In this document: one piece after another, positions 2 to 26,761 of the stretch
Position numbering within the stretch: position 1 is the first letter of the stretch
Layout of the letters: every line of letters starts with the position of its first letter
IMG/VR virus record: IMGVR_UViG_3300028025_004576
Span: 1 to 27,535 of that record
Direction: 5' to 3' (one strand)
DNA from: a virus
Length of the DNA: 27,535 nucleotides
Notes under the pieces: model-generated
Seen by the model: only the letters and a program-made list of their open reading frames with translations
Database searches by the model: none
What the model was told of the DNA's origin: nothing
Position numbers and translations under genes: made by a program

Positions 2-154
2 GTGATGATTCGCCCGCGCCCGGAAGTGGCAATGTACCAAAACGCGTGGGACCGCATGAAAAAAATTATTGGCGAATTCGGGTTGACCCCATCGTCACGC
101 GCCAAATTGGGCAAAAAAGAAGAAATTCAAGATGTTGACGATTTATTCGCATGA
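2..154 (+). CDS. terS: Terminase small subunit, C-terminal end (partial)
   Basis: This is the last 50 codons of a gene whose start lies off the left edge. The reading frame is open from base 2 to the TGA at 152-154. It contains EFGLTPSSRAKL, which matches the C-terminal end typical of P27-family phage small terminases. TerS binds the packaging site on concatemeric DNA and hands it to the large subunit. The stop overlaps the terL start in an ATGA, as expected for translationally coupled packaging subunits. P27 proteins are usually about 130-170 residues long, so roughly 80-120 codons are missing. The HNH gene at the far right end of the window normally lies just upstream of terS, which suggests that the two ends are neighbours in the genome. 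Confidence 0.85.
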   Translation: MMIRPRPEVAMYQNAWDRMKKIIGEFGLTPSSRAKLGKKEEIQDVDDLFA

Positions 155-1698
155 AATACCAATACGATCCCACCAAAGCCGAACGCGTCATTCGTTTCAT
201 TGAAACGCAATGTACACACGTCAAGGGCGAATTGGCCAAACAACCGTTCATTTTGGAACAATGGCAAAAAGACGACATCATTCGTCCATTGTTCGGAATG
301 GTTGACGCCAAAGGAATTCGGCAATACCGAACGGCGTTTTTGATGTTGCCGCGGAAAAACGGAAAGTCAAATTTGGTGGCGGCCATTGGTTTGTACCTAT
401 TGTTCGGCGAAGGCGAACCCGGCGCCGAGGTTGTGACGGCCGCCGCCGACCGCGGCCAAGCGGCCATCATTCACGAAATTCAAAAGCAAATGATTTTGAA
501 TTCGCCCGAAATGTCGAAGCGTTGCAACGTCTACCGCAATTCCATCGTTTTGAAACGTGACGCGTCGTTCATCCAGGCGATTTCAGCGGACGCCGACACG
601 AAACACGGATTCAACTGTTCGGCAATTTTGTTCGACGAATTACATTCACAACCAAACCGTGAATTGTGGGACGTTTTGAACACGTCCATCGGCGCCAGGC
701 GTCAACCGTTGGTGTTGGCCATCACCACGGCCGGACATGACAAACAATCCATTTGCTATGAGGTGTACGATTACGCGTTGAAAGTCCGCGACGGTGTGAT
801 TGAAGATGAAACGTTTTTGTCGATTATTTACGAAGCGCCAACCGACGCCGACATTTTTGATCCAAAGACGTGGGCGGCGGCAAATCCCGGATTGGGCGTC
901 ACCATCAAAACGGACTACATGACGCAACAAGCCGCAAAGGCCAAAGCGTTGACGACGTATGAAAACACGTTCCGCCGTTTGCATTTGAACCAATGGACGT
1001 CGTCGGAACAAAAATGGTTGTCGGACGACGATTGGATGTCGGGCGTTGATGCGTTGCCCGATTTGGCCGGGCGCGAATGTTTCGCCGGCCTGGATTTGGC
1101 CGCTACCGAGGACATCACGGCATTGGTATTGTTGTTCCCGATGCCCGACGATTCGTTTGTTGTGTTGCCGTTTTTTTGGGTCACGGATTCCGCCGTGGAA
1201 AAACGCCGCGGTCGAACCGGCGCCGATTATTCGGCGTTTGTGAAAAATGGAAATTTGAGGGCAACGAAAGGAAATTCAACCGATTACCGCGTTTTATTCA
1301 ACGACATATTGAAGTTAGCCGACCAACACAAAATCAAACAAATCGCGTTTGACCGTTGGAATTCGTCAACAATCATTCCTGACCTGGTTGATGCCGGATT
1401 GGAGTGTTTGCCGTTCGGCCAGGGTTTCGCGTCCATGTCCGCGCCAATTAAAAATTTGGAAATCGTTGTTCGGTCCGGAAAATTGAACCACGCCGGACAT
1501 CCGGTGTTGCGTTGGATGGCGTCGAATGTCCAGGCCAAACGTGACCCGTCCGACAACATAAAATTTGACAAATCGAAATCATCCGACAAAATCGACGGAA
1601 TGGTTGGATTGGCGATGGCGATGGGTTCGTACATGATGTCCAGGGAATCACCATCGGGCGAATCCGTGTACAACGAACGCGACATATTCATTTTATAG
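151..1698 (+). CDS. terL: Terminase large subunit
   Basis: This 515-residue ATPase/nuclease motor translocates DNA into the prohead through the portal and cuts concatemers. The N-terminal ATPase has a Walker A at residues 66-73 (LPRKNGKS) and a Walker B at about 159-163 (ILFDE). The C-terminal RNase H-like nuclease shows the expected spaced acids: D315 in GLDLAATED, D401 in the FDRW segment and D482 in DKIDG. Length and motif order fit the Terminase_1/HK97-like family. The start overlaps the terS stop by 4 bp. All key residues are present, so the protein is probably functional. Confidence 0.97.
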   Translation: MKYQYDPTKAERVIRFIETQCTHVKGELAKQPFILEQWQKDDIIRPLFGMVDAKGIRQYRTAFLMLPRKNGKSNLVAAIGLYLLFGEGEPGAEVVTAAADRGQAAIIHEIQKQMILNSPEMSKRCNVYRNSIVLKRDASFIQAISADADTKHGFNCSAILFDELHSQPNRELWDVLNTSIGARRQPLVLAITTAGHDKQSICYEVYDYALKVRDGVIEDETFLSIIYEAPTDADIFDPKTWAAANPGLGVTIKTDYMTQQAAKAKALTTYENTFRRLHLNQWTSSEQKWLSDDDWMSGVDALPDLAGRECFAGLDLAATEDITALVLLFPMPDDSFVVLPFFWVTDSAVEKRRGRTGADYSAFVKNGNLRATKGNSTDYRVLFNDILKLADQHKIKQIAFDRWNSSTIIPDLVDAGLECLPFGQGFASMSAPIKNLEIVVRSGKLNHAGHPVLRWMASNVQAKRDPSDNIKFDKSKSSDKIDGMVGLAMAMGSYMMSRESPSGESVYNERDIFIL

Positions 1699-2240: not shown

Positions 2241-2360
2241 TGTTTGTGTGTGTGGTTGATTGTGTGGGTGCGGGTGTTAGGATGGATGGGCCCCCCTATG
2301 GGGGGTCCCATACCTTCCCATCCAAACCCCCCAACACACCCATCACCACCAACCCCACAA
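2241..2360 (+). repeat. GC-rich hairpin element, copy 1
   Basis: This element fills most of the gap between the DUF1599-like gene and the portal. The core contains GGGCCCCCCTATGGGGGG followed by TCCC, giving six C:G pairs closing a three-base loop, a one-base bulge and further GGG:CCC and AT:AT pairing. The left flank (2241-2280) is 37/40 G or T and the right flank (2317-2360) is 42/44 A or C, so transcribed RNA could extend the stem imperfectly to about 120 nt. Bases 2282-2316 recur without mismatch, in reverse complement, at 19479-19513. There is no downstream T-run, so it is not a classical intrinsic terminator. It could be a bidirectional transcription block, an RNA-processing site or a replication/packaging signal; the function is unknown. 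Confidence 0.85.
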
Positions 2361-2424: not shown

Positions 2425-3657
2425 ATGGCCGAGCAAAAACAAAATTTCATTCAGCGGTTCAACCCGTTGAATTTGGTTCGTTCGTCAACTGTTTCGTCGT
2501 CGTTGACCCGCCCCGCATCGTGGTTGTACGATTTGATGTTCCGTAGCAAATCCGGCGCATCGGTCACCGAAGATACATCGTTACAATTTTCCGCCGTTTG
2601 GGCATCAATTCGGATTTTGTCTGAAACTTTTGCATCGTTACCGTTGCACGTTTACCAACAAACAACCGAAGGAAAATTCATTGCGCCAAACCATCCCGTT
2701 TCGTTTGTTATCAATTTTCCAAATAATTTTCAAAACGAATTCACGTTTTGGTCGTATTTGGAATCGTGTCGCCAACTGTACGGAAACGCATTTGCACAAA
2801 TCAAACGCAACGAAGCCGGACGTCCAATTGAATTGATCGCCATTCATCCGAAGCGCGTGAAAATCAAAATCGTTGACGGTGAAAAATACTACATCGTCGA
2901 CAACAACGGCGAAGCGGTTGATGATCAACACATGATGCACATCATGGGTTTGACCCTCGATGGTTTGGTTGGAAAATCAACATTGGCGTCCGCGCGTGAA
3001 GCGATTGGAATGGGATTGGCCGCGCAAACATTCGGCGCACAATTTTTCGGAAACGGTGCGAATTTGGGTGGCGTTTTGATTCACCCAGGCACGTTGACCA
3101 AAGACGCCGCCGAACGTTTGAAGCGTTCATGGGATTCGGCGCAAGGCGGATTGGAAAATTCACACGGAACCGCCGTTTTAGAAGAAGGGATGAAATACGA
3201 ACGTATTGGAATTCCGCCAAACGATGCTCAATTCCTGGAATCACGAAAATTTCAAATCGCCGACATTTCACGTTTTTTCCGCGTTCCGTTGTTCATGTTG
3301 AACGAAATGGACAATTCATCGTCCCGCGCGAACATCGAAGAACAAGGCATTTCATTTGTTCGCGACACCGTCCGGCCGATGGTCAAAGCGTATGAATCGG
3401 AAATGAATCGGAAATTGTTTCGTGAGGACGAACGCGGCGAATTTTACGTCCGTTTCAATTTGGATGGTTTACTACGGGGAAACATTCAGTCCAGGTATAG
3501 CGCTTATTCAATCGGCCGCCAATGGGGTTGGTTGTCCGCGAATGACGTTCGCGACATGGAAAATTTGAACCCAATTGAAGGCGGTGACATTTACGTCACG
3601 CCGTTGAACATGGCCAATGTCGCCACGGACAATACAACCGAAAATCTTTACGAATAA
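2425..3657 (+). CDS. Portal protein, HK97 family
   Basis: This 410-residue protein would form the dodecameric ring at the unique capsid vertex through which DNA passes. It has the usual HK97-portal features: an N-terminal segment with FSAVWASIRILSET, a central QLYGNAFAQI region, a region around residues 165-200 containing HIMGLTLDG and GKSTL, and a C-terminal FRVPLFML / DNSSSRANIEEQ region ending in ESEMNRKLF. The length is normal for the family. ATG 2425 is the first start in frame and follows the GC-rich hairpin gap. The stop overlaps the next start (AATAATGC), so the protease gene is translationally coupled. Confidence 0.95.
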   Translation: MAEQKQNFIQRFNPLNLVRSSTVSSSLTRPASWLYDLMFRSKSGASVTEDTSLQFSAVWASIRILSETFASLPLHVYQQTTEGKFIAPNHPVSFVINFPNNFQNEFTFWSYLESCRQLYGNAFAQIKRNEAGRPIELIAIHPKRVKIKIVDGEKYYIVDNNGEAVDDQHMMHIMGLTLDGLVGKSTLASAREAIGMGLAAQTFGAQFFGNGANLGGVLIHPGTLTKDAAERLKRSWDSAQGGLENSHGTAVLEEGMKYERIGIPPNDAQFLESRKFQIADISRFFRVPLFMLNEMDNSSSRANIEEQGISFVRDTVRPMVKAYESEMNRKLFREDERGEFYVRFNLDGLLRGNIQSRYSAYSIGRQWGWLSANDVRDMENLNPIEGGDIYVTPLNMANVATDNTTENLYE

Positions 3658-4862
3658 TGCCATACAACGATTACCCACAATCGGCATCGGACAACGCACA
3701 ACGCGCATTGGATTTCAAAGCCGAACGCGACATTGATTGCGGAACCGTTGTCGGTTGGACACGCGCCAACCAATTGGCCAGCCGTGAAGCGATTTCCGAC
3801 GAAATCGTTGTTCGCACATTTTCTTTTTTGGTCCGTGCCAAAGTTTACGACACCGGCGAATTTGAAGATTCCGAAGGGAATGTCGTTTGCGGTTCCGTGA
3901 TGTATGCCGCGTGGGGCGGTGACCCAATGATGGAATGGACCGAAGAAGTGATGGAGGGTTGGAACGCCGAAGAAGAATCAAAATTGACCCGCGCCGCCGC
4001 CGGTGAATTGTTCGTCGGTGATTTTGTTCGTTGGAACACGTCCACGGGTTTTGCTTACGGTCGCATCGTTCAAGTCGAATCAAATGGTGATTTGACAGCC
4101 ACGTCGGGGTTCTCGATGACCGGCACCAATGACGATCCCGTCGCATTGGTGCAAATTTACGATTTCGACGCCGACGCCAACGAATACGTTGAACGTCGCC
4201 CGGAATTGAATGTTGTTCACCGTTTTTCTACGTTGACAAAACACGACGAAGAACAACGCGGTTCCGCCGCAATCGTTGAACGTCGGGCGGTTTCCGATAT
4301 TGGAATCAGCAACGAAGCCACACGAACGGTCCGCGGTTACGCCGCCGTTTTCAATTCCGAATCCGAAGATTTGGGCGGGTTCATCGAATTGATCAAACCC
4401 GGCGCGTTTGACGACGTGATGAACGACGACGTCCGTGCGCTATTCAACCACGACCCGAACTATTTGTTGGGCCGCACAAAATCGGGAACATTGAAATTGT
4501 TCGTTGATGCCCGTGGTTTGGGTTACGAATACGATTCACCGGAAACCACATACGCAAACGATTTGTTGGAATTGATGCGCCGCGGCGACGTCACACAATC
4601 GTCGTTTGGTTTTACGGTAAAAAAGGACAATTGGATTCAGCGCGGAAACGTGATGTTCCGATTCATCGAAAAGGTAGGTCGCCTTTATGACGTTAGTCCC
4701 GTGACCTACCCAGCATACCCCGCCACGACCGCCGGAATCGCCAATCGGAATTCAATTCCAAATGACGATTTGCAGCGGGAACCCGTCGAGCAAAGCGCCG
4801 ATGGAAACACCGAAACGCCAATTCAAGCGTTCCGGATTCGTTTAATCAAAACACAAATTTGA
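3657..4862 (+). CDS. Prohead protease with extra N-terminal domains
   Basis: This 401-residue protein is about twice the length of a normal HK97 prohead protease. The C-terminal part (about 205-365) is the protease (U35/S78 type). It has RGYAAVFN, then H265 in ALFNHDP and S315/S316 in DVTQSSFGF as the expected His and Ser, and a VSPVTYPAYP end. The N-terminal part has two added segments. Residues 1-100 contain YPQSASDNAQRAL, CGT, GWTRANQLASREAIS and an AAWGGD motif. Residues 115-195 (GDFVRWNTSTGFAYGRI through TGTNDDPVALVQIY to HRFSTLTK) look like an SH3-like barrel module seen in some phage head proteins. The protease would process capsid delta domains and scaffold during maturation. The N-terminal part may bind portal or capsid or act in cis as scaffold (inference). 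Confidence 0.9.
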   Translation: MPYNDYPQSASDNAQRALDFKAERDIDCGTVVGWTRANQLASREAISDEIVVRTFSFLVRAKVYDTGEFEDSEGNVVCGSVMYAAWGGDPMMEWTEEVMEGWNAEEESKLTRAAAGELFVGDFVRWNTSTGFAYGRIVQVESNGDLTATSGFSMTGTNDDPVALVQIYDFDADANEYVERRPELNVVHRFSTLTKHDEEQRGSAAIVERRAVSDIGISNEATRTVRGYAAVFNSESEDLGGFIELIKPGAFDDVMNDDVRALFNHDPNYLLGRTKSGTLKLFVDARGLGYEYDSPETTYANDLLELMRRGDVTQSSFGFTVKKDNWIQRGNVMFRFIEKVGRLYDVSPVTYPAYPATTAGIANRNSIPNDDLQREPVEQSADGNTETPIQAFRIRLIKTQI

Positions 4863-4868
4863 ACTAAC

Positions 4869-6071
4869 ATGAATAGTGTTCAATTGCGCGAAAAGCGCGC
4901 CGCTCTTATCGAGCAAATGAATGGTTTGGTCGCAGCCGCCCAAGCCGAAGGACGTTCATTGAACGCCGAAGAAGGATCGAAATTCGATGCAATGGAAAAT
5001 GACGCCAACGAATTGAAGGCGAATTTTGAGCGTGTCGAACGCTCCGAATCCATGCGTAAAGAATTGGCCGCCAAGCGCGAAGAATCCATCGAAGAACGCG
5101 CCGCAACGGCCAAGCCGGAGCAACGCGCCGTATTCGCTAAATTCCTTCGCCACGGCATCAATGCTTTGAACGCCGAAGAACGCGCCGAAATGCGTGGCAC
5201 GTCCACACAAGTCGCCGGCACGGATTCTTTGGGTGGATTTTTGGTTCCCGAAGATTTCAGCAACGCACTTGACGTCGCCATGAAATTCTCCGGACCCGTT
5301 GAACAATTGGCCCAGGTATTGAACACCACAAGCGGTGCGCCTTTACCTTACCCAACCGTCGACGATACATCCGTAATTGGCGCCATTTTGGCCGAAGCCA
5401 GCGCGGACACAGTTTCCGACATGACGTTTGCAGCGTTGAATTTGGGCGCGTACACTTACACGTCCAAAATCGTTAAAGTTTCACGCCAATTGTTGCAAGA
5501 CAACGCGTTTGACCTTGAAGCGTTTTTGGTTGACGCATTGGGCCAGCGCATCGCGCGCGGAACCAACGCCGATTTCACCACGGGCAACGGTTCATCCAAG
5601 CCAACGGGTGTTGTTAACGGTTCGTCTTTGGGCAAAACTGCCGCCAGCGCCACCGCGATTACGGCAGCCGAATTGTTGGATTTGTTGTACTCCGTTGACC
5701 CAGCGTACCGCAATTCAGCCAATGCCGCGTTCATGATGAAGGATTCAACCCTTTCAGCCGTTCGCAAATTAGGTATTGGTTCCGCCAATGATTTCCCGGT
5801 ATTTATGCCAGGTATCGGCGTAGGTCAACCCGACACCTTGTTCGGGAAGCCCGTGTATGTGAACAACGACATGGCCGCCATTGCAACAACCAACAAATCC
5901 GTTTTGTTCGGTGATTTCAGCAAATACGTTGTTCGTGTTGCCGGTCCGTTGCAATTCCTACGCCAAGACGAATTGTACGCGGCATCTTTGGTTGTTGGAT
6001 TCACCGCGTTCAAGCGCGTTGACGCCGGATTGTTGCAGTCCGCTGCAATCAAGCACCTTGTTCAAGCGTAA
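4869..6071 (+). CDS. Major capsid protein, HK97 fold
   Basis: This 400-residue protein builds the icosahedral shell. The N-terminal 75-100 residues are charged and predicted coiled coil (REKRAALIEQMN, EERAATAKPEQ), as in the HK97 delta domain that acts as built-in scaffold. The mature fold begins around GTDSLGGFLVPEDF (about 117-130), and the C-terminus has the DELYAASLVVGFTAFKRVD pattern typical of the family. No separate scaffold gene is seen between protease and capsid, which fits a delta-domain design. The exact cleavage site cannot be read from sequence alone. It overlaps the next gene by one base (TAATG). Confidence 0.96.
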   Translation: MNSVQLREKRAALIEQMNGLVAAAQAEGRSLNAEEGSKFDAMENDANELKANFERVERSESMRKELAAKREESIEERAATAKPEQRAVFAKFLRHGINALNAEERAEMRGTSTQVAGTDSLGGFLVPEDFSNALDVAMKFSGPVEQLAQVLNTTSGAPLPYPTVDDTSVIGAILAEASADTVSDMTFAALNLGAYTYTSKIVKVSRQLLQDNAFDLEAFLVDALGQRIARGTNADFTTGNGSSKPTGVVNGSSLGKTAASATAITAAELLDLLYSVDPAYRNSANAAFMMKDSTLSAVRKLGIGSANDFPVFMPGIGVGQPDTLFGKPVYVNNDMAAIATTNKSVLFGDFSKYVVRVAGPLQFLRQDELYAASLVVGFTAFKRVDAGLLQSAAIKHLVQA

Positions 6072-6256
6072 TGATTGATGTCGAATTTTTGCAAACCATC
6101 GTGGGTGATGGGTTCGCGTATCGCTCCGGCGATACGGGATCCATCCCCACGGGGATTGCTGAAGAATGGTTGGCATTGGGATATTGCCAGGCCATTGGTG
6201 TGAAGCAAGTCGAGAAAAAGGAACGCGCAACATATACGAAGCGCGAAAAACGATAG
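6071..6256 (+). CDS. Small head-region protein
   Basis: This 61-residue protein of unknown function is coupled to the capsid gene by a TAATG overlap. The pattern VEFLQTIVGDGFAYRSGDTGSIPTG followed by a helix (IAEEWLALGYCQAIG) and a basic tail resembles short phage proteins placed after capsid genes, in which a small beta unit with a 'Y..GD...P' turn is followed by 'A..L...G.A'. The gene at 8113-8250 has the same general plan. A decoration or assembly role is possible but unproven. Codon use is like the neighbours. Confidence 0.75.
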   Translation: MIDVEFLQTIVGDGFAYRSGDTGSIPTGIAEEWLALGYCQAIGVKQVEKKERATYTKREKR

Positions 6257-6259
6257 TCA

Positions 6260-6829
6260 ATGTCAATCAAAATAATCACCCCCGCAGCCAGCGAACCGCT
6301 ATCGTTGTCCGACGTGAAAACGTTTTTGCGCGTTGATTCCAACGCCGAAGACGCATTGATCACGGCGATGATTGTGGCGTCGCGGCAATTGTGCGAACAA
6401 TATATGCGGCGGATTTTGATTACTACGACTATTGAAGAATTTTTCGATTATTTTCCGCCCTACAAATTCGGTCAATCGGACATCATATATATGTCCGTTG
6501 GACCCGTTCAATCCATCACGTCCGTGAAGTATTTGGATGGCGTTGGCGCGGAAATAACGGTCAACAACTCCAAATACCGAACGGACATCATTTCAGAACC
6601 CGCGCGCATCATTTCAACGGATGGTTGGTTCGATACCGAAGATACCATCAACGTTGTGACGATTCGTTATGTCGTTGGCTATTCGTCCGCATCGGATGTC
6701 CCCGGACCCGTGAAACAAGCGATGTTGTTGATCATTGCCGATATGTACGAAAAACGTCAAGATTCCATAAAACAATTGCCAACGGCATCGGAGTATTTGA
6801 TGAAGCCGTACCGAATTTTCACGTTCTAA
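6260..6829 (+). CDS. Head-tail connector (gp6 / phiE125 gp8-like)
   Basis: This 189-residue connector would form the adaptor ring below the portal. The N-terminus (LSLSDVKTFLRVDSNAEDAL) followed by IVASRQLCEQYMRR is the hallmark of the phage gp6-like/phiE125 gp8 connector family. A beta-rich middle carries a 'VGPVQSITSVKYLD' segment, and the C-terminus has VPGPVKQAMLLIIADMYEKR. The position between capsid and head-closure protein is the expected one. The length is normal. Confidence 0.9.
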   Translation: MSIKIITPAASEPLSLSDVKTFLRVDSNAEDALITAMIVASRQLCEQYMRRILITTTIEEFFDYFPPYKFGQSDIIYMSVGPVQSITSVKYLDGVGAEITVNNSKYRTDIISEPARIISTDGWFDTEDTINVVTIRYVVGYSSASDVPGPVKQAMLLIIADMYEKRQDSIKQLPTASEYLMKPYRIFTF

Positions 6830-7719: not shown

Positions 7720-8108
7720 TAGGTAAGGTCGTAAAATATAAATTTGACAACAACGCCACGTTGAACGGATTGTTCGCCGGGCGGGTTTACCCATTCATTG
7801 CCGCGCAAGGTGTTTTGACGGCGCCCTATGCGGTGTACGAAATCATTCGTACCAACCCGGCGGGTTCAAAAGACAACGATTCCGAAATCGACGAAACGTT
7901 GGTTCGGATCACGGTTGTTTCAACAAAATACAGCGATATTCAAACCGCTGTTGAAGGTGTCCGGGCTACCTTTCCAAGAACGTCCGGCCCCGTGGCGGGT
8001 GTACAATATCAATCATGTTCGTTCGACGATTTTCGCGATATTTATTCCGATAAGGACGAATTTTTCGGCGGGCAGATTGATCTAACGTTTCGAATTCCTA
8101 AATCTTGA
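7716..8108 (+). CDS. Tail completion / terminator protein (DUF3168-like)
   Basis: This 130-residue protein caps the head-proximal end of the tail tube. FAGRVYPFIAAQGVLTAPYAVYEIIRTNPAGSKD gives the DUF3168 start, in which a 'G.....PYAVY' strand follows a 'V.P' turn. It is followed by RITVVSTKYSDIQTAVEGVRATF and ends in FFGGQIDLTFRI, all typical of tail completion proteins. The position just before the tube protein supports this. The ATGA overlap couples it to the gene before. Confidence 0.87.
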   Translation: MIGKVVKYKFDNNATLNGLFAGRVYPFIAAQGVLTAPYAVYEIIRTNPAGSKDNDSEIDETLVRITVVSTKYSDIQTAVEGVRATFPRTSGPVAGVQYQSCSFDDFRDIYSDKDEFFGGQIDLTFRIPKS

Positions 8109-9083: not shown

Positions 9084-9415
9084 ATTGGGACGGAATTGAA
9101 GCCATCGCGTTGGGTGAAATGTCGTTGACGCCCGCCGAATTTTACGAACTAACGCCGCGCGAATTTTCCAACAAATCCATTGGACATTTCGAGCGCGTGG
9201 AACGTGATTTCAAAACGTCATGGGAGCAAACCCGGTGGTTGGCCGCAATGGTTATGAATCCGCATTTGAAAAAATCATTGAAACCAAATGATTTGGCGAC
9301 GTTCCCGTGGGAAAAAAACTACAAAAAAACGAAACAAAAAACGCCGCCAACCCGGTTTGAATTGATTAAATTGGCCGAAGATTTGGGCATTTTAACGCCC
9401 GAAAAAAACGGTTGA
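9053..9415 (+). CDS. Tail assembly chaperone T-like domain (by -1 frameshift)
   Basis: This segment is probably not a free-standing gene. It has no good start near its beginning; the first ATG in frame is at 9110, inside the conserved region. Read after a -1 shift at GGGAAAC it adds 120 residues to the first 102 of the G-like protein, giving a 222-residue G-T fusion. LNWDGIEAIALGEMSLTPAEFYELTPREF is the recognisable T-type motif (W, then 'G..sl.PaEFy.LTPrEF') and sits upstream and downstream of that ATG, which supports the fusion. In lambda the T domain recruits the tube protein to the tape measure. Independent initiation at 9110 cannot be fully excluded. Confidence 0.83.
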   Translation, partial: RPNPTDGDPLNWDGIEAIALGEMSLTPAEFYELTPREFSNKSIGHFERVERDFKTSWEQTRWLAAMVMNPHLKKSLKPNDLATFPWEKNYKKTKQKTPPTRFELIKLAEDLGILTPEKNG

Positions 9416-9417
9416 TA

Positions 9418-11634
9418 ATGGCGGGTTTAGGTTCAATCAATTTTCGTATCGGCGCGGATCTAAAAGAATTCCGTTCGTCGATGCAAAATATCGACCGCAC
9501 GTTGGGCGGTTTGTCGTCTAAATTCAACATGGTTGGTGGCGCCCTTGCGGGGGCGTTTGCCGTGAACGGAATCCAACAATTCGTTACTGAAACGTCAAGA
9601 TTAGCGGGCCAGGTTGACGGCGTTCGCACGGCGTTTGATCGTATGGCGCCGGCCGGAATGTTAAGCGATTTGCGCAAGGCGACACGCGGAACCGTTTCGG
9701 ATTTGGAATTGATGCAAAACGCCGTAAAGGCGGGCAACTTTGGAATTCCGTTGAAAGAAATGGGAACGTTGTTGCAATTTGCATCACGCCGCGCCCAGGA
9801 AACGGGCGAATCCGTTGACTACCTTGTTTCGTCCATCGTTACCGGTATTGGTCGGAAATCGCCTATGATTTTGGACAACCTGGGAATTTCAACGTCCCGG
9901 TTGAAAGCCGAATTCAAAGGCGCATCGGTTGAAGCACAATCAATCGCCGACGTGACCGCCGCGGTTTCTAAAATCGCGCAAGAGGAAATGTCAAAAGCCG
10001 GGGCGGCAACAATCACCGCCGCCGACGCCGCCGCACAAGTGACGGCCAATATGACGAATTTACAAGCCGCCATTGGTGAACGGATGAATCAATCCATGGG
10101 ACCGTTTTTGTCCAATTTGGGTTCAACGGTTGGATATTTTGCCGATTTGGTCGCCATTCCATTGTCCGAAAAATACGAAGATGAAGCGTCCGCCGTTGCG
10201 GGTTTGACGGTGGAATTGACATCGTCCGACACCGCATTGGAACGCCGCCGGGACATCATCAATTATTTGAATTCCAAATACCCCGGTTACCTGGATAACA
10301 TCGACGCAGAAAAATCGTCAATGGCGGATTTGACCGCAGCCACACGGAAATTGAATGAACAAATGATCAACCGTGTGATCGTTCAGCGCCATCAAGAGGA
10401 TATTGACGAACAAAACGAAAAGGTCGCCGACCGTGCCGTTGATGTTGCCCAAGCGCGAATTGATTTGACAAAGGAAATTGCAAAACGCGAGCGTGAATAT
10501 AACATCATTTCCAAAGAAGGGGCAACGATTCAGGAAAGAGCCACGGCAGTAATTGAAGCACAAAACAAGGCGTACAAAGATAAATTTGGCACGAACCAGG
10601 GACAAAAACAAGGTGGTATCGCCGCTAAAAAGTTAGCCGAAGATTTGGCGTTCGCGGAAAGGAAATTAACAAAGGAACAAGACAAAGGGAACGATATTTT
10701 CAAAAAACGCGACGAAATTTTGAAGCAACTCAACATTTCGTTGGGTGATTCCGAAAAATTAATCAATAAAACGTCCGAATCAACAAACGATTCAACCGCG
10801 GCAACGGTGGCATCAACCGCCGCCAAACAAAATGACGTCAACGAATTGGGCCGTTCGGCCGATGCGATGGCCGAAATGAAAGCGGCGTTGGATGAATTAT
10901 TCATTTCGGTCGCCATGGAGGGTTCCATGTCGGAAAAAATGGAATTGGCCAACGTCGTTTCGTCGTTGAAACAAGCCGCCGACAACACCGAAAGAATGAA
11001 AAACGAAATGGCGGGTTTGTTGATTGAACCGCCATTCGACCCAATGTTGCCAGGCCAAGACGCGTTCAACGAGGGATTGGAAGATACCGTAGAATTGATG
11101 TCCGGCCAGGTTTTTCCCGTGTTCAATGCATTTGCCAAAAACATGGACACGATTAATTGGGCAATTGGTGAATTCGGAAACATTTTGACGGCATCATTTG
11201 AAGCCGCGTTGACGTCGGGTGAAAAGTTTTTTCCGACGTTGATGAAGGCATTGGGCGACATGATCAAAAAACTAATTGCCGCCGCCATTGCCGCCGCCGT
11301 ATTGGCCGCCGCGATTACCGTTGCGTTCGGCGGAAACTTTGCCAACATCGGAAAATTATTCGGCGGGGCAAAGAATTTCGGGCAACTGTTCGGCAAAATG
11401 TTCGGCGAAATGTCCGGAATCCCTGGATTGGCCGAAGGTGGAATTGTCACCGGCCCGACGTTGGCGATGGTTGGCGAAGGCCGTGGTCCCGAAGCCGTGA
11501 TCCCATTGGACCGTTTGCATGAATTTACCGGCGGTGGCGGTGGTGTCCAGGTTTACGGACGAATCCAGGGCGCCGACATCCTTTTATCATCCGAGCGCGC
11601 CACACGCGTTCGTTCACGTTACCGCGGTTTCTAA
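9418..11634 (+). CDS. Tail tape measure protein
   Basis: This 738-residue protein sets tail length. The N-terminus has SINFRIGADLKEFRSSMQ, the common tape-measure opening, followed by a glycine/alanine-rich hydrophobic stretch and conserved ETSRLAGQVDGV and SRRAQETGESVDYL segments. The middle (about 320-500) is long charged helix. A hydrophobic helix at about 620-640 (LIAAAIAAAVLAAAITVAFG) precedes a C-terminal GGIVTGPTLAMVGEGRGPEAVIPL motif typical of these proteins. ATG 9418 is preferred over the in-frame TTG at 9412. If the usual rule of about 0.15 nm per residue holds, the tail is around 110 nm. Confidence 0.95.
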   Translation: MAGLGSINFRIGADLKEFRSSMQNIDRTLGGLSSKFNMVGGALAGAFAVNGIQQFVTETSRLAGQVDGVRTAFDRMAPAGMLSDLRKATRGTVSDLELMQNAVKAGNFGIPLKEMGTLLQFASRRAQETGESVDYLVSSIVTGIGRKSPMILDNLGISTSRLKAEFKGASVEAQSIADVTAAVSKIAQEEMSKAGAATITAADAAAQVTANMTNLQAAIGERMNQSMGPFLSNLGSTVGYFADLVAIPLSEKYEDEASAVAGLTVELTSSDTALERRRDIINYLNSKYPGYLDNIDAEKSSMADLTAATRKLNEQMINRVIVQRHQEDIDEQNEKVADRAVDVAQARIDLTKEIAKREREYNIISKEGATIQERATAVIEAQNKAYKDKFGTNQGQKQGGIAAKKLAEDLAFAERKLTKEQDKGNDIFKKRDEILKQLNISLGDSEKLINKTSESTNDSTAATVASTAAKQNDVNELGRSADAMAEMKAALDELFISVAMEGSMSEKMELANVVSSLKQAADNTERMKNEMAGLLIEPPFDPMLPGQDAFNEGLEDTVELMSGQVFPVFNAFAKNMDTINWAIGEFGNILTASFEAALTSGEKFFPTLMKALGDMIKKLIAAAIAAAVLAAAITVAFGGNFANIGKLFGGAKNFGQLFGKMFGEMSGIPGLAEGGIVTGPTLAMVGEGRGPEAVIPLDRLHEFTGGGGGVQVYGRIQGADILLSSERATRVRSRYRGF

Positions 11635-14600: not shown

Positions 14601-17600
14601 TTCCGCAACGAACACACACACGTTCAATTTTCCGACCGGTTCGGCGACAAATCGCGGTTTAATTTCAACGGCCGATTGGACGAATTTCAACACGGCCTAT
14701 AATGACAAAATAAATAGCGCCGCCGTAACGGGAACGACAACAAAAACGTTGACGTTGACGCAGCAAGATGGCGGAACAATTACCGCATCGTGGACCGATT
14801 ACGACACGGCGCCAGTCACAAGCGTATTCGGCCGCACGGGTGTTGTTGTCGCCGTTGGTGGTGATTACAACACAAGCCAGGTCACGGAAAACACCAATTT
14901 GTATTTCACCGATGCACGGGCCAGGGCGGCAATAAGTTTGACCACAACGGGAACAAGCGGGGCGGCAACGTATAACAATACGACCGGGGTCATAAACATT
15001 CCGCAATATCAAGCGGTGTTGACGAATCCCGTGACGGGAACGGGAACAACGAATTATGTTTCCAAATTCACGGGAACAAGCACCGTTGGAAATTCGCAAA
15101 TCTTTGACAACGGAACCAACGTCGGCATTGGGACCACAAGTCCGGGCGCAAAACTTGACGTGAGTGGAATTGCACGGGCAACAAGTTTATCAACGGTTAG
15201 CGGTTTGGGTTTGCAGGTTGGGGGTTATGCTTTTTTGAGCCAAACCACATCGGGGGTGATGACCTTTTTGGGACACAACATTCGTGCGTCCGATTCGGTG
15301 GCAAATACCGCAATTGTTCAAAATGCTGGTTGGATTTCGTCGTTGATGAAAATGTACTATTCCGACGGAATAACGTTCCACACCGATTCAACCGTGTACG
15401 CAGCGGGCGCAACATACCCATTGTCAACGTCCGAACGTATGCGAATTACACCCGCTGGAAACGTTGGCATTGGGACGACAACCCCCAACGGAAAACTCCA
15501 GGTAGACGGCGATTTTTATGTCAACGGCCTGGATCGAAAAATAATGAATTACAATGGCGCCGTTGACTACGGCACGTTGACAAATAATTCCGTAAGATTT
15601 AACCAAAACGGTACGGAAATAGCGAGAATAAATACCAGCGGAAACTTTGGCATTGGTACGACATCGCCATTTTCACGCTTTACTGTTAGCGGTGCTTTGA
15701 GCGCATCAACATCGCAAATTAGCATCGTAAACACCGAAGGCGGTCATTCAATTATTCGAGCTGGAATTTCTGGTGTTTCCAACAATGGAATGTCGTTTGT
15801 CACCGCAAACGTTGATGGTTCATCACAAAATGTTCGGATGGTTGTTGGCGCAACTGGACGTGTTGGAATTGGAACGACAAGCCCCCCCCAAGCCCTTTCA
15901 GTAATTGGAAACATTTACCAAAGAACGGGCGATTTCATAACATGGGACAACGGTGACGCTCAAATCGGCGCAGTTTCCGGGTATTCGTTGACATTTAGCA
16001 CATACAACGGATCAACCGCATTGCTTGAACGCCTCCGCATCACATCGGCAGGAAACGTCGGGATTGGAACGACAAGTCCAACTGCTCAATTGGATGTAAC
16101 TGGAAGTACAAGCACCACTAAAATAAAGGTCGTTTCTCCTACCGCAAGTTCTTTATTTGAAAGTGGTATTGAGTTTATACGAACAACTGTTGCTGGCGGA
16201 TCAAAAATACAATCAATAAGAGATGCGTCATTAGGTGGGGTTGGTTTAACATTTCATACAACTGCAGATAATGCTGCAGAAGTTGCTGCGACTTACTCGC
16301 AGAGAATGGCTATTTTACCAAATGGAAATGTTTTAATTGGTACAACTACAGATTCTGGATTCAAATTTGAAACCACGGGAACAGGACGATTCAGCCAAAC
16401 AACGGCAATACCTTTGACGGTCCAACGCACTACGGCAAATTCAAACGTTGGAATCCGATATCAAAATAACACGACATCGTGGTATTCCGGTTTGGCCGCT
16501 GATGATTCATTTTCGGTTTCGTTTAACGATGCGAATTTGTCAGCAGGACAATTCAAGGTAGCGACAACTGGCGCAGCAACGTTTACAAGTAGCGTCACGG
16601 CAACGTCGTTCAATGGCACAACGAACAACATTTTGAGCGTTGGCGGAACGGAGCGTATGCGAATCAATTCGTCTGGAAACGTTGGAATCGGCACGACAAG
16701 TCCAGCGACAAGGTTGGATGTATTGGGGGCGTCAAGTGCCGACGTTACGTTGCAATTAAAAGCAAACGCGTCAAATGATTACAATTCAAAGATATTTTTC
16801 AGCGATAACGTAAGCAATAGAGGTGTCATATTGTACAGCAATTGGCAAAACTATTTTTCATTTTTTACAAATTCATCCGAGCGTGTCCGTATTGATTCAA
16901 GCGGAAACGTTGGTATTGGAACCACATCACCGGCAGTAAAATTGCACGTTGAAGGCCGAATATATGCGGGGGACATTGGCATTGCCACCACATCACCAAC
17001 GCAAAAATTGCACGTTGTAGGCAACGCACGAATCACCGGGGCGATTCACGATTCGCTGAATTCGCCCGGAACCGCCGGTCAAGTTTTATCATCAACCGTA
17101 ACCGGAACGGAATGGATCACGGGCGGTGGAGGCGGTGGTTCAACGATCATTGTCAAAGACGAAGGAACGACCATCGGTTCATCGTTTACCACATTGAATT
17201 TTGCTGGAAACAACATCCAGGCGACGGCAAGTGGTGCAACTGCCAACATCACGGCGTTCAACAACGCCGGAACGGGTTCGTATTATTTGAACGCGGCAAT
17301 AACAAATTATGCCCCAGGTGCGACATTTGACGACGTTGAAATTGATTCGGCGTTGATTGTTGCATCATCACCCGACGCCGCATCGGGTTCGTCAAAATTG
17401 ATTGCAACGGTGACGTTCGGCGTTGAAAACGTTTCGTCGTATGACGGTTTCAACAACTTTGAATTCCGTTTGTACGACGTGTCACAATCAATTGTTGTTT
17501 CAGATACAACACATACATGGACGGGTTATATGTCAAAAGACGAAGGGGCAACACGAACCGTGTTCACGTTTCACATTCCGTTGCAAGATGATGTCACGCC

Positions 17601-18833: not shown

Positions 18834-19244
18834 ATGAATATGCGTAATTTTTTGATTTTCACAATGTTGTTTGCGTTGTGTTCGTGTGGCATTTTCAAAA
18901 AAGCCGACCCGATTATTGTTGAAAAAATTGTGTTGAAATGGGACACAGTATACACGGAGCGAATCACCGTTGACACGTCCTTTGTGACCACGCCAAATGA
19001 TACCATTTTTGTAACTAAAGACAAATTGTTGGTTCGCGTGATTCGCAAATTCGACACCATCCGTGTTTCGGCGCAATATGCCGGCGACACCACGGCCGTC
19101 AAATCGGTTGTTTTAGAGCAAAGACAATCCCCACCCGCCAAACGTGGCAACACCTGGAGTGAATTATTATCGGGGTTGGCTGTTGTTGCCGTCGTCGTAA
19201 TGGCGTTCAAAGTGTTTTTCGACACCATTTTCAGCAACAAATAA
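18834..19244 (+). CDS. Unimolecular spanin-like lipoprotein
   Basis: This 136-residue protein has an N-terminal signal (residues 4-16, RNFLIFTMLFALC) with a lipoprotein-type cysteine, most likely C18 (L-C-S-C). A periplasmic stretch of about 90 residues follows, and then a C-terminal membrane helix at about 110-130 (LLSGLAVVAVVVMAFKVFF). An outer-membrane lipid anchor plus inner-membrane C-terminal anchor in one chain is the architecture of u-spanins such as T1 gp11 (131 residues), which fuse the membranes at lysis. The periplasmic part looks beta-rich, as in u-spanins. It is the last gene before the double terminator. The role is predicted from topology, not sequence identity. Confidence 0.78.
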   Translation: MNMRNFLIFTMLFALCSCGIFKKADPIIVEKIVLKWDTVYTERITVDTSFVTTPNDTIFVTKDKLLVRVIRKFDTIRVSAQYAGDTTAVKSVVLEQRQSPPAKRGNTWSELLSGLAVVAVVVMAFKVFFDTIFSNK

Positions 19245-19250
19245 ATTTCC

Positions 19251-19295
19251 ACGGCATACAACGAACCGCCACGCGTTCGCTGATGCCGTTTTTTT
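19251..19295 (+). terminator. Intrinsic terminator of the late operon
   Basis: Outer stem ACGGCAT (19251-19257) pairs with ATGCCGT (19283-19289). Inside it, CGAAC pairs with GTTCG around an 8-base loop. Seven T residues (19289-19295) follow directly. It lies 6 bp after the spanin stop and is a textbook intrinsic terminator. Confidence 0.88.
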
Positions 19296-19301
19296 GACGC
19301 G

Positions 19302-19360
19302 TAACGAAGTTTTACGCCGCTTTGGTACATTGGTATCACCGCGGCGTTTTTAATTCGTTA
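19302..19360 (+). terminator. Second, nested dyad terminator
   Basis: TAACGAA (19302-19308) pairs with TTCGTTA (19354-19360), and inside it ACGCCGC (19314-19320) pairs with GCGGCGT (19341-19347), followed by five T residues. The AT-rich junctions (GTTTT, TTTTAA) make an interrupted 59-bp palindrome. It may back up the first terminator; an operator or RNA-processing role is possible. Confidence 0.65.
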
Positions 19361-19478
19361 AAACGCACGAAAACGCTTCATCGGTTTTTTTATGGGTTTG
19401 GCGTTGGTTGTTGACATCGGAAACACATTCATTCAAACGATGGGGTTGGTTGGTAGGTGGAAAGGGGATGTGGATGAA

Positions 19479-19513
19479 AAGGTATGGGACCCCCCATAGG
19501 GGGGCCCATCCAT
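19479..19513 (-). repeat. GC-rich hairpin element, copy 2 (inverted)
   Basis: These 35 bases are the exact reverse complement of 2282-2316. The strand read here has GGGACCCCCC, a three-base ATA loop, then GGGGGGCCC. As at copy 1, the upstream flank is G/T- or purine-rich (about 19441-19478) and the downstream flank A/C-rich (19514-19560), so a long imperfect hairpin is again possible. Identity extends beyond the palindromic core, which argues for duplication or strong constraint rather than chance. Confidence 0.88.
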
Positions 19514-19560
19514 TCACATACCCCCATCCGTACATACAACCACATCACCACATCCATCAA

Positions 19561-19578
19561 TTAACAATGCGTTGTTAA
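19561..19578. promoter_or_regulatory. Candidate operator dyad
   Basis: TTAACAA (19561-19567), four bases TGCG, then TTGTTAA (19572-19578) form a perfect 7-bp inverted repeat. CGTTGT occurs in it (19570-19575) and again at 19586-19591. It lies about 34 bp upstream of the promoter -33 element, where an activator or repressor could bind. No regulator gene is recognised in the window. Confidence 0.45.
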
Positions 19579-19611
19579 TATAACACGTTGTAAAATTTTT
19601 TTTGAACAAGT

Positions 19612-19642
19612 GTTGCGGGAATGAATTTTGGTTGTATGTTTG
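19612..19642 (+). promoter_or_regulatory. Bacteroidota-type promoter for the early genes
   Basis: GTTG at 19612-19615, a 19-base spacer, then TATGTTTG at 19635-19642 fit the Bacteroidota primary sigma pattern (TTTG or TTG, 17-23 bases, TAnnTTTG). Transcription would start near 19650, giving a leader of about 30 bases before the ATG at 19681. It faces the early module and lies after two terminators, a logical place. Confidence 0.65.
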
Positions 19643-19680
19643 CCAAGTGAACGACAAACAACCCCGGTCACGAAAGCAAA

Positions 19681-19839
19681 ATGAAACCATTTATCACAAT
19701 CAACATTCACCCGCTACGCATGGCCATTCGTTCCATCGTTCGGAATTGGCAATTGATCGCATTTGCCGCAACTGGATTCATGTTGGGCCATTCGCTTCGC
19801 CCAATTTTGCGAATCATCATTTTCACATTTTTCAAATGA
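19681..19839 (+). CDS. Small membrane protein (52 aa)
   Basis: This is the first gene after the early promoter. The product begins MKPFITINIHPLRMAIRS and then has a hydrophobic region (LIAFAATGFMLGHSL) and a second hydrophobic C-terminal stretch (ILRIIIFTFF), with basic residues between. It is probably membrane-associated; the function is unknown. The leader carries CGAAAGCA just before the start. Its TGA overlaps the next ATG in an ATGA, which supports it being a real gene. An early membrane protein could affect host physiology or exclusion, but nothing in the sequence proves this. Confidence 0.65.
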   Translation: MKPFITINIHPLRMAIRSIVRNWQLIAFAATGFMLGHSLRPILRIIIFTFFK

Positions 19840-19994
19840 CCTACATCGTCACATTTTTAGACGGTCGCCAGGTGACTGTCTGGGCGAAATCCGCCAACAA
19901 CGCCGGCCAGGCCGCAACGGAAATCCGATGCAACGAAGATGAAACGGGCGACGTTCCGCCGATTCGTTCCATCGCCCACCATCCAAATTATTAA
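19836..19994 (+). CDS. Small hypothetical protein (52 aa)
   Basis: The start at 19836 is chosen for the ATGA overlap; the frame is also open upstream, but that part overlaps the leader and the previous gene. The product reads MTYIVTFLDGRQVTVWAKS and then NNAGQAATEIRCNED, ending in ...SIAHHPNY. This beta-beta-alpha-like plan (strand, D-G turn, strand, then an 'A.NA..AA.E' helix) is common in tiny phage proteins that look like single ubiquitin- or ferredoxin-like units. The function is unknown. Confidence 0.68.
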   Translation: MTYIVTFLDGRQVTVWAKSANNAGQAATEIRCNEDETGDVPPIRSIAHHPNY

Positions 19995-20040
19995 ACAATT
20001 ACATCAACCGAAAGCATCTAAATTTAACAAAATCAACAAA

Positions 20041-20661
20041 ATGACAAAACCCGATTTCATCAAAGGTCACCAAATGTTCGTCAACGGCAAGGCCGTTTGG
20101 GCGAAAGTGACAAGCGCCACCGGTCCGAATGATATGTCACAAAAATATCAATTGGATTTGGAATTGGACGAAGCATCGTTGGCGGAAATTCAATCGTTCG
20201 GAACACGCGTTTTTGAAGCGATTGTAAAAACAACCCGCAAGGCGAAAGATTCCGACGAACGCGTTGAATGTGCGCCATTCATCACGCCAAAATCAAATAA
20301 TTTGCCACGCGTGTTCGGCGCAAACCGTTTGCCGTACGACGGCCCCATCGGTAATGGTTCCGATGTTCGTTGCCAAATCATCATCAAAGTATTTGAATAC
20401 AAAGGGAAAAAAGGGTTGACGGTGTATTTGAACGCCGTCGTCGTTGTTTCCCTTGTTGAATACTCCAATATCAACGAAGATGCGTTGTTCGATGGTTTAA
20501 CCGCTGGTTCCGACGACGTGTTCGGCGAAGCGCCAAAACCAAATGTTGATGAATGGTCCCCGAATATCGGACCGACAACAAAGGCAACAACCGCCACACA
20601 AATAATCAAAGATAAAAACGCGGCGAAACCCGCAATTGAGGACGACGATTTGCCATTTTGA
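20041..20661 (+). CDS. Single-stranded DNA-binding protein (gp2.5/DUF2815-like)
   Basis: This 206-residue protein has the phage SSB plan of an OB-like core followed by a flexible linker and an acidic tip. GKAVWAKVTSATGPN near the start, then KYQLDLELDE, LPRVFG, GPIGNGSDVRCQIIIKVFEY and KGLTVYLNAVVVVSLVEY, match the DUF2815/T7 gp2.5-type family. The C-terminus EDDDLPF is the acidic-aromatic tail through which SSBs bind partner proteins. The start at 20041 fits the family; an in-frame ATG at 19939 would overlap the previous gene and adds an unrelated segment. It would coat ssDNA at replication forks and recombination ends. Confidence 0.88.
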   Translation: MTKPDFIKGHQMFVNGKAVWAKVTSATGPNDMSQKYQLDLELDEASLAEIQSFGTRVFEAIVKTTRKAKDSDERVECAPFITPKSNNLPRVFGANRLPYDGPIGNGSDVRCQIIIKVFEYKGKKGLTVYLNAVVVVSLVEYSNINEDALFDGLTAGSDDVFGEAPKPNVDEWSPNIGPTTKATTATQIIKDKNAAKPAIEDDDLPF

Positions 20662-20737: not shown

Positions 20738-21151
20738 ATGAATCCATTTCAAATGCGATTGGCGAACGAAATCATGGAATCGGTTTCCCGATATTACCAA
20801 ATCACCGTTTCCGAAATCACCGAAAAAAGACGCCACGCAAAAATTGTTCGCGCCCGCCAGGTCGCCGCGTATTTGTTGCGCGAAGATTTACGATTGTCGT
20901 TGCACGAAATTGGCGCAATTATTAACCGCGATCATTCGTCGGTTGTTCATGCCCACAAAGCCATCAAAGAATTAACAACGCCGAACGTGATTGGAGTGTT
21001 TGCCGACAAAACGTTGGTGATGGAAATTTCCGACATCCGTCATTTGTGCAAATCAACATGGTCACGCCAGGAAATTGACGAAATCGAATATCAAATGGAA
21101 CGTTTAACCCTACGCCGCGACGAATTGTTGCGGGCGCAAAATTCAAAGTAA
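20738..21151 (+). CDS. DnaA domain IV-like DNA-binding protein
   Basis: In this 137-residue protein the first 80 residues match the C-terminal DNA-binding domain of the replication initiator DnaA. YYQITVSEITEKRR is followed by ARQVAAYLLRE, LSLHEIGAIIN and the signature RDHSSVVHAHKAI (residues 64-76), where R-D-H contacts the DnaA box in bacterial DnaA. The AAA+ ATPase domain is absent. Residues 100-137 are a charged helix. It may bind DnaA-box-like sites to start phage replication, recruit the host replisome, or titrate or compete with host DnaA (all inference). It lies between SSB and the RecE-like nuclease in the early module. Confidence 0.9.
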   Translation: MNPFQMRLANEIMESVSRYYQITVSEITEKRRHAKIVRARQVAAYLLREDLRLSLHEIGAIINRDHSSVVHAHKAIKELTTPNVIGVFADKTLVMEISDIRHLCKSTWSRQEIDEIEYQMERLTLRRDELLRAQNSK

Positions 21152-25710: not shown

Positions 25711-26261
25711 ACGACGACGAAAAGAGAATGATGGCAATCATGCAAAACGGAAACAATGGCGATCATTACTATACCATTGGCCCGACGGTTTTTTTGACCG
25801 AAGATGAATTGGCATTGGCCGAACGCGTTGGCCGTGTGCGAAACGAAATGATGAACAAAATGAATTTGTCATCGACAAATCGCAATTTGCCCGACAAAGA
25901 AAACATGGAAATCATGGCCGTCGCCGCGGAAATAGCCGTCGCAAAGTATTTGAATTTATATTTTGAATACCGTTTGCCGTTGGTTCCTGGATCATGCGAT
26001 ATGAAATTGAACGACGGCCGTGGAATTGATGTTAAATTCACAACATACGGAAACGGAAAATTGATTGTTCCCGTGTCAAAACGCAATTCGTGTTCGGTTT
26101 ACGTTTTGGCGATCAACACCAACGGTTCGTCGATGTTCAACATCGCCGGTTGGGCGACGGCCGACGAACTGTTCAACGACGAAAATATCGTTGAAATGTA
26201 CGGGAAAAAAAAATACGTTATGCATCAAATACAATTGAACCACATCAACGAATTAAAATGA
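25707..26261 (+). CDS. Putative PD-(D/E)XK nuclease-like protein
   Basis: In this 184-residue protein a helix with E75 in VAAEIAVAKYLNL precedes a CDMKL segment (D98), and GIDVKFTTYGNGKLIV has D108 and K110. E, D and DxK are in the order seen in phage PD-(D/E)XK proteins, followed by a VYVLAINT strand and a GWATADEL segment as in similar proteins. The substrate is unknown. The start at 25707 is chosen for the ATGA overlap; an upstream ATG at 25662 would overlap the zinc-ribbon gene. The N-terminal 60 residues are acidic and not recognised. Confidence 0.7.
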   Translation: MNDDEKRMMAIMQNGNNGDHYYTIGPTVFLTEDELALAERVGRVRNEMMNKMNLSSTNRNLPDKENMEIMAVAAEIAVAKYLNLYFEYRLPLVPGSCDMKLNDGRGIDVKFTTYGNGKLIVPVSKRNSCSVYVLAINTNGSSMFNIAGWATADELFNDENIVEMYGKKKYVMHQIQLNHINELK

Positions 26262-26761
26262 AAAATCCATCCGCACATACCACATGGGCCGAGGTGACAA
26301 AGTCACAAACGGCCGAACGTTACGGAATTGACAATATGCCAACGCCAACGCACAAAGCGAATTTGGTGGCGATTTGTCAAAATGTCTTTGAACCATGCCG
26401 CGAATTTGTCGGCGGGCCGTTGCACATTTCGTCGGGCTACCGTTCCCGCACGTTGAACAATAAAACGCCAGGCGCTTCAAAGACGTCCGACCATTTGACG
26501 GGCAACGCCCTAGATTTGGATTGCGATCATTTTGGTAACGGAACCAACGCCGAATTGTTTCATTTCATTTTGGACAATTTGCAATTTTCCCAATTGATTT
26601 GGGAACATGGCAATCACCCGTGGAATTCAAAGGCAGAAACGCCACAACCCGCATGGGTTCACGTTTCGTTTTTTACGGACCCATCCAAAAACAATGGTCA
26701 AGTGTTGGTCGCATCACGCGACGCGGCCGGACGTACAATATACCGCCGATATGTTCGATGA
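26258..26761 (+). CDS. Endolysin, M15 zinc peptidase
   Basis: This 167-residue protein is of the Peptidase_M15_3 (M15A) type, which cuts peptide cross-links in peptidoglycan. HISSGYRSRTLN is followed by SDHLTGNALDLD, with zinc ligands H79 and D86, then LIWEHG (E116) and AWVHVSF (H135) as third ligand. No signal peptide is seen, so it would need the holin for export. It lies in the early module, about 7 kb from the holin/spanin cassette. ATGA overlap at its start; the next gene begins 11 bp before its end. Confidence 0.92.
   Translation: MKNPSAHTTWAEVTKSQTAERYGIDNMPTPTHKANLVAICQNVFEPCREFVGGPLHISSGYRSRTLNNKTPGASKTSDHLTGNALDLDCDHFGNGTNAELFHFILDNLQFSQLIWEHGNHPWNSKAETPQPAWVHVSFFTDPSKNNGQVLVASRDAAGRTIYRRYVR

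Follow-up and report, generated by a model that had tools for sequence, protein, structure and literature searches.

The window, by which the whole analysed stretch of 27,535 bases is meant, is an IMG/VR virus record that carries two long imperfect hairpins, one directly before the portal gene (site 1) and one at the head of the replication module (site 2). Among its relatives the hairpin at site 2 keeps its place while its sequence is replaced, a combination which suggests that the signal is the hairpin as such. The hairpin is probably a working signal, and it is tentatively read here, with somewhat less than even confidence, as a DNA stem-loop that starts replication, ancestral at site 2 and present at site 1 as a second, inverted copy. 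The features of the window that bear on this reading are the following.

151-1698, plus strand: TerL
2249-2359, plus strand: full hairpin of site 1 (111 nt; quasi-palindrome score 22.6, rank 1 in the window)
2282-2316, plus strand: first copy of the 35-nt core, reading exactly as the reverse complement of the second
2425-3657, plus strand: portal protein (profile match), first gene 3' of site 1
9412-11634, plus strand: tape measure
18834-19244, plus strand: small lipoprotein-like ORF that closes the late module, spanin-like by position and N-terminus alone
19314-19351, plus strand: terminator-like hairpin past the late operon (ACGCCGC ... GCGGCGT, then TTTT), a putative function
19439-19554, minus strand: full hairpin of site 2 (116 nt; quasi-palindrome score 20.0, rank 2 in the window)
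19479-19513, minus strand: 35-nt core, copy 2, exact reverse complement of copy 1
19635-19642, plus strand: candidate -7 element TATGTTTG for the promoter of the replication operon, conserved in 3/3 near-clade genomes
19939-20661, plus strand: Gp2.5-like ssDNA-binding/annealing protein
20738-21151, plus strand: small protein with a DnaA C-terminal DNA-binding domain (PF08299)
23487-25541, plus strand: Prim-Pol (PF09250) with an AAA_25 domain (profile match)
26258-26761, plus strand: M15 endolysin

Protease and capsid genes occupy the plus strand between the portal and the tape measure, and a PD-(D/E)XK nuclease gene follows the DnaA_C-domain gene on the same strand. The PF08299 protein is a possible initiator, while the Prim-Pol is a candidate user of the hairpins. 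The family scan returned no family match for the lipoprotein-like ORF. An HNH endonuclease gene lies near the window end (27176-27466, E 1.5e-9), and at 15119-17022 a long fibre-like ORF contains repeats of families D1-D3 that encode an NVGIGTTSP-like motif, as translated by eye. Within the 'phages' collection, no record reached at least 60% identity to the portal (2,235 records matched, with ~45% among the matches listed), to the tape measure (21 matching records, mostly Porphyromonas phages) or to the Prim-Pol (48 records, from Arthrobacter, Cellulophaga, Flavobacterium, Olleya and other phages). Relative to window positions 151-155, ~840 nt are inserted just before TerL in L005 (3696-4537), L008 (1085-1926) and L009 (539-1380).

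As a preliminary description of this DNA had reported, the two cores are exact inverted copies, with all 35 bases matching (E 2.5e-15). Among inverted repeats whose copies lie at least 200 nt apart, the longest measures 35 nt in the window, compared with 14-20 nt in 15 dinucleotide-shuffled windows. The extent of 35 bp given there proved too small, each core being the tip of a longer imperfect hairpin, and the opposite orientation ascribed to the copies rests on minor asymmetries (the TAT loop, an extra T and an ACCTT bulge), since the element is near-palindromic. The hairpin at site 1 is built from a C6-TAT-G6 tip, a 6-nt bulge, a GT-rich 5' arm and a CA-rich 3' arm; the outer arms are almost without C on the 5' side and almost without G on the 3' side, and the two copies are 78% complementary over 97 nt. 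The third-ranked quasi-palindrome of the window scores 17.6 and the best among 30 shuffled windows 18.6, and a comparison set of 50 unrelated viral loci (375 kb) contained 12 hairpins scoring at least 18 and 2 scoring at least 20 outside the selected C6-TAT-G6 places, all under gap costs that were softened after a stiffer-cost scan had missed the window's own elements, so that the scoring was chosen afterwards. Folding of both strands at both sites yields -56.8 to -66.2 kcal/mol (z-scores -2.6 to -3.9); by folding energy alone, the elements rank only second and third in the window, behind 6101-6200. Neither the window nor six pieces of relatives matched Rfam at gathering thresholds, and no paper on this element was found among the open-licence papers listed for hairpins, palindromes or terminators in such phages.

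Site 1 lies in the gap 2239-2424, between a small ORF ending at 2238 and the portal start at 2425, whereas site 2 separates the end of the late module from the replication module, in a gap of 19245-19681 or 19245-19601 according to the start codon chosen. These are the two largest gaps between ORFs taken as genes, although not the only non-coding ones, as had been claimed. Similarly, contrary to the earlier account, only part of the structural and lysis module is enclosed by the pair, from the portal to the lipoprotein-like gene ending at 19244, while TerL and the M15 endolysin fall outside. For a packaging signal, another of the functions suggested earlier, there was no evidence; the oriented contigs of five relatives (G004, G008, G010, G013 and G001) start 526-544 nt before TerL, which suggests a fixed, cos-like genome end at that likelier place. 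A weaker hairpin (score 13.8-18.7) also occurs just past the capsid gene in the window (6078-6176), G004 (6496-6578), G001 (7740-7802), G009 (4415-4490) and G011 (5033-5081); it lies inside or close to a small ORF and may be related to coding.

Eight other IMG/VR contigs contain exact matches to a 29-base core pattern, in 9 stretches altogether, and one of these contigs, 3300044546_000401, carries both copies, making an assembly artefact unlikely. Among the loci recovered with the portal, of which 80 of 110 were kept, the hairpin is present at site 1 in all eight close relatives that include the upstream gap (L012, L013, L014 and L016-L020; portal 84-95% identical), L015 and L023 being excluded from this count as they start within the portal. 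Given that L013 matches part of the L014 genome exactly and that L018-L020 are 99.9-100% alike, these represent five distinct site-1 sequences besides the window. At site 2, the hairpin is present in all three near-clade records (the window, G004 and G007). G006 and G007 share 1,931 identical overlapping bases, so the second near-clade group very probably carries both copies as well. The loss of the hairpin in close relatives, against which the preliminary description had asked that its proposal be judged, was thus not encountered.

The structure has also been retained through sequence change. Over nine distinct copies, the 36 stem pairs are formed in 98.1% of cases, against 93.7% in shuffles, and two-sided change affects 7 of the 36 pairs, against 3.5 expected, a level reached by 1 of 500 shuffles, which ignore relatedness and use a structure derived from the same alignment. 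The changed cells comprise 15 two-sided, 3 one-sided and 6 unpaired cases; further standard pair types were not above shuffles in these copies (9 vs 9.4), and slid versions of the structure are only 46-61% paired. L012 and L017, which belong to different groups, both show GGG..CCC changed to GGA..TCC. At site 1, the two near-clade groups have common outer arms and different inner sequences, that of the second group being of the site-2 type, which suggests that patches may have been exchanged between the copies, and the core is nearly identical between copies despite a DNA difference of ~12-25% among near-clade genomes. The block CCCCGTTGCATAAATGCCGGGGAACGTTCACC occurs in only 3 contigs and is therefore not a general part of the element. 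The strand in gene direction folds better in 9 of 19 copies and is thus not favoured; it does so in 0/6 copies at site 1, 3/3 at near-clade site 2, 0/1 in G001 and 6/9 in the far group. The counts at the two near-clade sites mean that the same strand of the element always folds better there, whatever the gene direction.

In the far group, whose portal is ~51-54% identical, a hairpin unrelated in sequence to that of the near clade stands at site 2 in all nine spanning records; G014 and L236 fail to cover the site and were not counted. The scores are 22.2 (G008), 22.6 (G009), 23.6 (G010), 17.4 (G011), 16.3 (G012), 19.5 (G013), 16.7 (L233), 19.1 (L234) and 18.1 (L235). Each hairpin is the best of the part scanned, although barely so in G011 (17.4 vs 17.3) and G012 (16.3 vs 16.1), and the three weak ones that score below 18 (G011, G012 and L233) are insufficient on their own. 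These hairpins fall into two sequence groups, each with common stems on alignment folding, and are AT-richer than those of the near clade; covariation is slight, both partners having changed in 1 of 32 pairs, one that lies outside the main stem, in one group and in 3 of 23 pairs in the other. None of the 15 far-group loci compared has a strong hairpin at site 1 (none scoring at least 18 by quasi-palindrome scan), so that conservation of the hairpin at the same places holds for site 2 and fails for site 1 in this group. L021 and L022 (portal 58% identical) carry an unrelated long palindrome exactly at site 1, and the only copy known in G001 sits there too. A second hairpin copy was represented only by chance matches of 10-15 nt in the whole records G008, G009 and G010 and in the first 20 kb of G011 and G013. 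Fourteen other loci (L094-L107), with an ssDNA-binding protein 30-33% identical, contain no hairpin scoring at least 18, the best (17.4) lying downstream of that gene; because they match none of 12 other family proteins tried, they carry no weight for or against the hairpin pattern.

The spacing around site 2 is asymmetric. From the hairpin start to the first downstream ORF, the distance is 357-387 nt in all eight far-group records in which it is measurable (G011 ends too early) and 242-244 nt in the three near-clade records, and the gap from the last late ORF to the hairpin varies from ~50 to 626 nt (eight far-group records, L234 starting too late). This near-fixed downstream distance and variable upstream gap indicate that the hairpin travels with the leader of the replication module. 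The far-group leader has a promoter-like end and contains conserved T-tracts, small hairpins and, in most records, a GCGCGTGAGCGC block. Upstream of the hairpin, six far-group records (G008, G009, G013, L233, L234 and L235) possess a minus-strand ORF of 80-96 codons, 50-87% identical between records. By eye, the first ORF past the leader differs in each of G008, G009, G010, G012, G013, L233, L234 and L235, as if small genes had been swapped in directly after it. In the near clade, the terminator-like hairpin at 19314-19351, which was read from the sequence and was not listed by a terminator scan with a loop limit of 8 nt, is conserved in G004 and largely in G007. The candidate promoter element at 19635-19642 is one of eight TATGTTTG-type motifs on the plus strand of the window; TATGTTTG, or TAnnTTTG, is what we take to be a Bacteroidota-type promoter element.

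If replication starts at the hairpin, the stem-loop would act as DNA, either as a cruciform or as a hairpin on single strands, and the phage-encoded Prim-Pol/helicase would begin DNA synthesis there. The ancestral copy would be that of site 2, in front of the replication module, and site 1 would hold the second, inverted copy carried in the near clade, the two copies potentially giving two start points. Prim-Pol PF09250 was detected in all four genomes scanned (E 4.1e-14 to 7.1e-13), and the sole PDB match of the Prim-Pol is pRN1 ORF904 (1rni), at an E of 0.075 that is not significant alone. GC skew shows no change of polarity, and DnaA boxes are not enriched, with 3 one-mismatch sites in the window, one of them within the site-2 arm, compared with ~6 by chance. 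Against a role in replication stands the location of site 1, which precedes the portal, far from the replication genes. No hairpin scoring at least 16 was found in the first 40 of the 72.5 kb of the PF09250-annotated Cellulophaga phage phi38:1, and none above 17.0 in MT836043, which is matched over the helicase half. GTG and CAC together number 11 at site 1 and 6 at site 2, against a genome mean of 2.8, and the 4 hairpins counted from the far group or G001 contain no GTG. The site-1 copy, the part of phi38:1 examined, with no comparable hairpin, and the far-group absence of GTG leave the replication reading uncertain.

The foremost alternative, a serious possibility that is likewise judged short of probable, is a transcript boundary, in which the hairpin would form in read-through RNA, be cut by RNase III or block polymerase or exonucleases, and so separate the TerL, late and replication operons and protect RNA ends. 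Each site separates two modules and has promoter-like sequence downstream of it, the folds are very stable on both strands, and the asymmetric bulge between the stems resembles T7 RNase III sites; site 1 and the copy in G001 are also explained as simply as site 2. In addition, a GC hairpin followed by CATACCTTTT, weakly terminator-like, occurs on the minus strand of site 2 and on the gene strand of site 1 in the second near-clade group. However, a terminator-like hairpin is already present upstream of near-clade site 2, and the plus strand of the window has no U-tract after either hairpin, so the earlier suggestion of a transcription block, taken as an intrinsic terminator, is not supported for that strand of the window. 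The hairpin lies between divergent ORFs in six far-group records, the far-group hairpin has a T-tract before it but lacks one immediately behind it, the gene strand is not consistently preferred, and one-sided pair changes are few. The terminator scan says little, as its 40 matches in the stretch compare with 39.7 in shuffles; those on the element are both on the minus strand of site 2 (19507-19487 and 19498-19483). A stem-loop that starts replication is preferred over a transcript boundary on account of the seemingly unneeded terminator at site 2, the fixed place with free sequence, the precedents of pRN1 and RSF1010, and the Prim-Pol. From the options listed in the preliminary description, which chose none of them, a replication signal and RNA processing both survive, the former fitting slightly better.

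A protein-binding or DNA-topology element, such as an operator-like dyad or a cruciform beside the module promoters that controls transcription rather than replication, is considered unlikely. The near-identity of the core within the divergent near clade suggests sequence recognition or gene conversion, and a promoter-like motif lies downstream of site 2, but far relatives retain the hairpin without the sequence, which means that a fixed motif is not kept across the family. A host-derived or mobile repeat caught in the phage, of the REP or MITE-like kind, would account for two similar palindromes between genes, yet it is very improbable: the 26-base core pattern has no exact match in 84,980 species represented by one genome each, among which the host, probably a member of the Bacteroidota, may be missing, and each phage has two copies at fixed places. 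A looser 19-base pattern gave two matches in the same collection, to a Deltaproteobacteria MAG and a Rhodobacteraceae genome. Least credible of all is that the copies are recombination sites inverting the 17-kb module, as was also proposed earlier, for despite the exact inverted repeat and the site-2-type inner sequence that the second near-clade group has at site 1, for which gene conversion alone suffices, the module order is the same in 9/9 records at site 1 and 3/3 at site 2 (the window in both; L012 and L017 by eye from their flanks), and no recombinase appeared among the 25 window ORFs family-scanned, the fibre and several small ORFs lying outside the scan.

The tip sequence was also tried as a general signal and rejected, C6-TAT-G6 occurring in 109 stretches of IMG/VR against 104 for C6-TTT-G6, with no enrichment. 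Among the matches listed, at least 6 of 8 flanking bases are paired at 8 of 79 distinct C6-TAT-G6 sites, compared with 0 of 83 C6-TTT-G6 sites, and long palindromes centred on C6-TAT-G6 are present in other viral contigs (L127, L152, L170, L163, L135, L128 and L120).

To our knowledge, most replication origins of phages that encode a Prim-Pol have yet to be mapped. A hairpin that is fixed in place while its sequence is replaced provides a small, concrete target for testing replication initiation, and such hairpins could serve as a marker for finding the origins of Prim-Pol phages among uncultured phages. If the RNA reading is true, the hairpins show instead how these phages keep their operons apart.

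Several known systems offer comparisons. The RNase III processing sites of phage T7 are irregular intergenic hairpins, often near promoters, with an asymmetric bulge between two stems; the hairpins described here differ in being longer and in having no gene-strand preference, and they are known from sequence alone. Bidirectional intrinsic terminators share the GC-rich perfect tip, but in the window the gene strand has no U-tract after the present elements, and a separate terminator-like hairpin accompanies the one at site 2.

The IncQ plasmid RSF1010 has two single-strand initiation hairpins, ssiA and ssiB, one per strand, for the RepB' primase (PMC4434180). The near-clade pair resembles them in its paired hairpins of opposite orientation and in the archaeo-eukaryotic type of the primase; the ssi sites measure 40 nt with a short hairpin, whereas the present hairpins are ~110 nt long and 17 kb apart. 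GTG is the primer start in pRN1 and RSF1010, and here strong GTG enrichment is confined to site 1, with none in the far-group hairpins counted. A more specific proposal, which is itself improbable, is that the inverted pair would form strand-specific Prim-Pol start sites 17 kb apart, in an IncQ-like manner within a tailed dsDNA phage, and that the single hairpin of the far group would be the general origin form among Prim-Pol phages of this kind.

By analogy, the closest precedent is the stem-loop of plasmid pRN1. It is a movable stem-loop of ~100 nt, required for replication and conserved in structure but not in sequence, which adjoins a dispensable terminator, and the replicon depends on a Prim-Pol; the authors of that study do not directly show initiation at the stem-loop, and they suggest that Bordetella phages, BIP-1 among them, use a similar element (PMC4234260). 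The pRN1 stem-loop lies just 3' of the replication protein gene and has a large loop, and its Prim-Pol is fused to an SF3 helicase and a winged helix, whereas the present hairpin precedes the Prim-Pol gene by 3.9 kb and has a short loop (3 nt in the window), the Prim-Pol is joined to an AAA_25 domain, the DnaA_C-domain protein is separate, and one clade carries two inverted copies. The likeness in conservation of structure is qualified by the restriction of clear covariation to the near clade and by the three of nine far-group hairpins scoring below 18. What the two systems have in common is a stem-loop of ~100 nt with conserved structure and free sequence, situated near a terminator or terminator-like hairpin in a genome that encodes a Prim-Pol.
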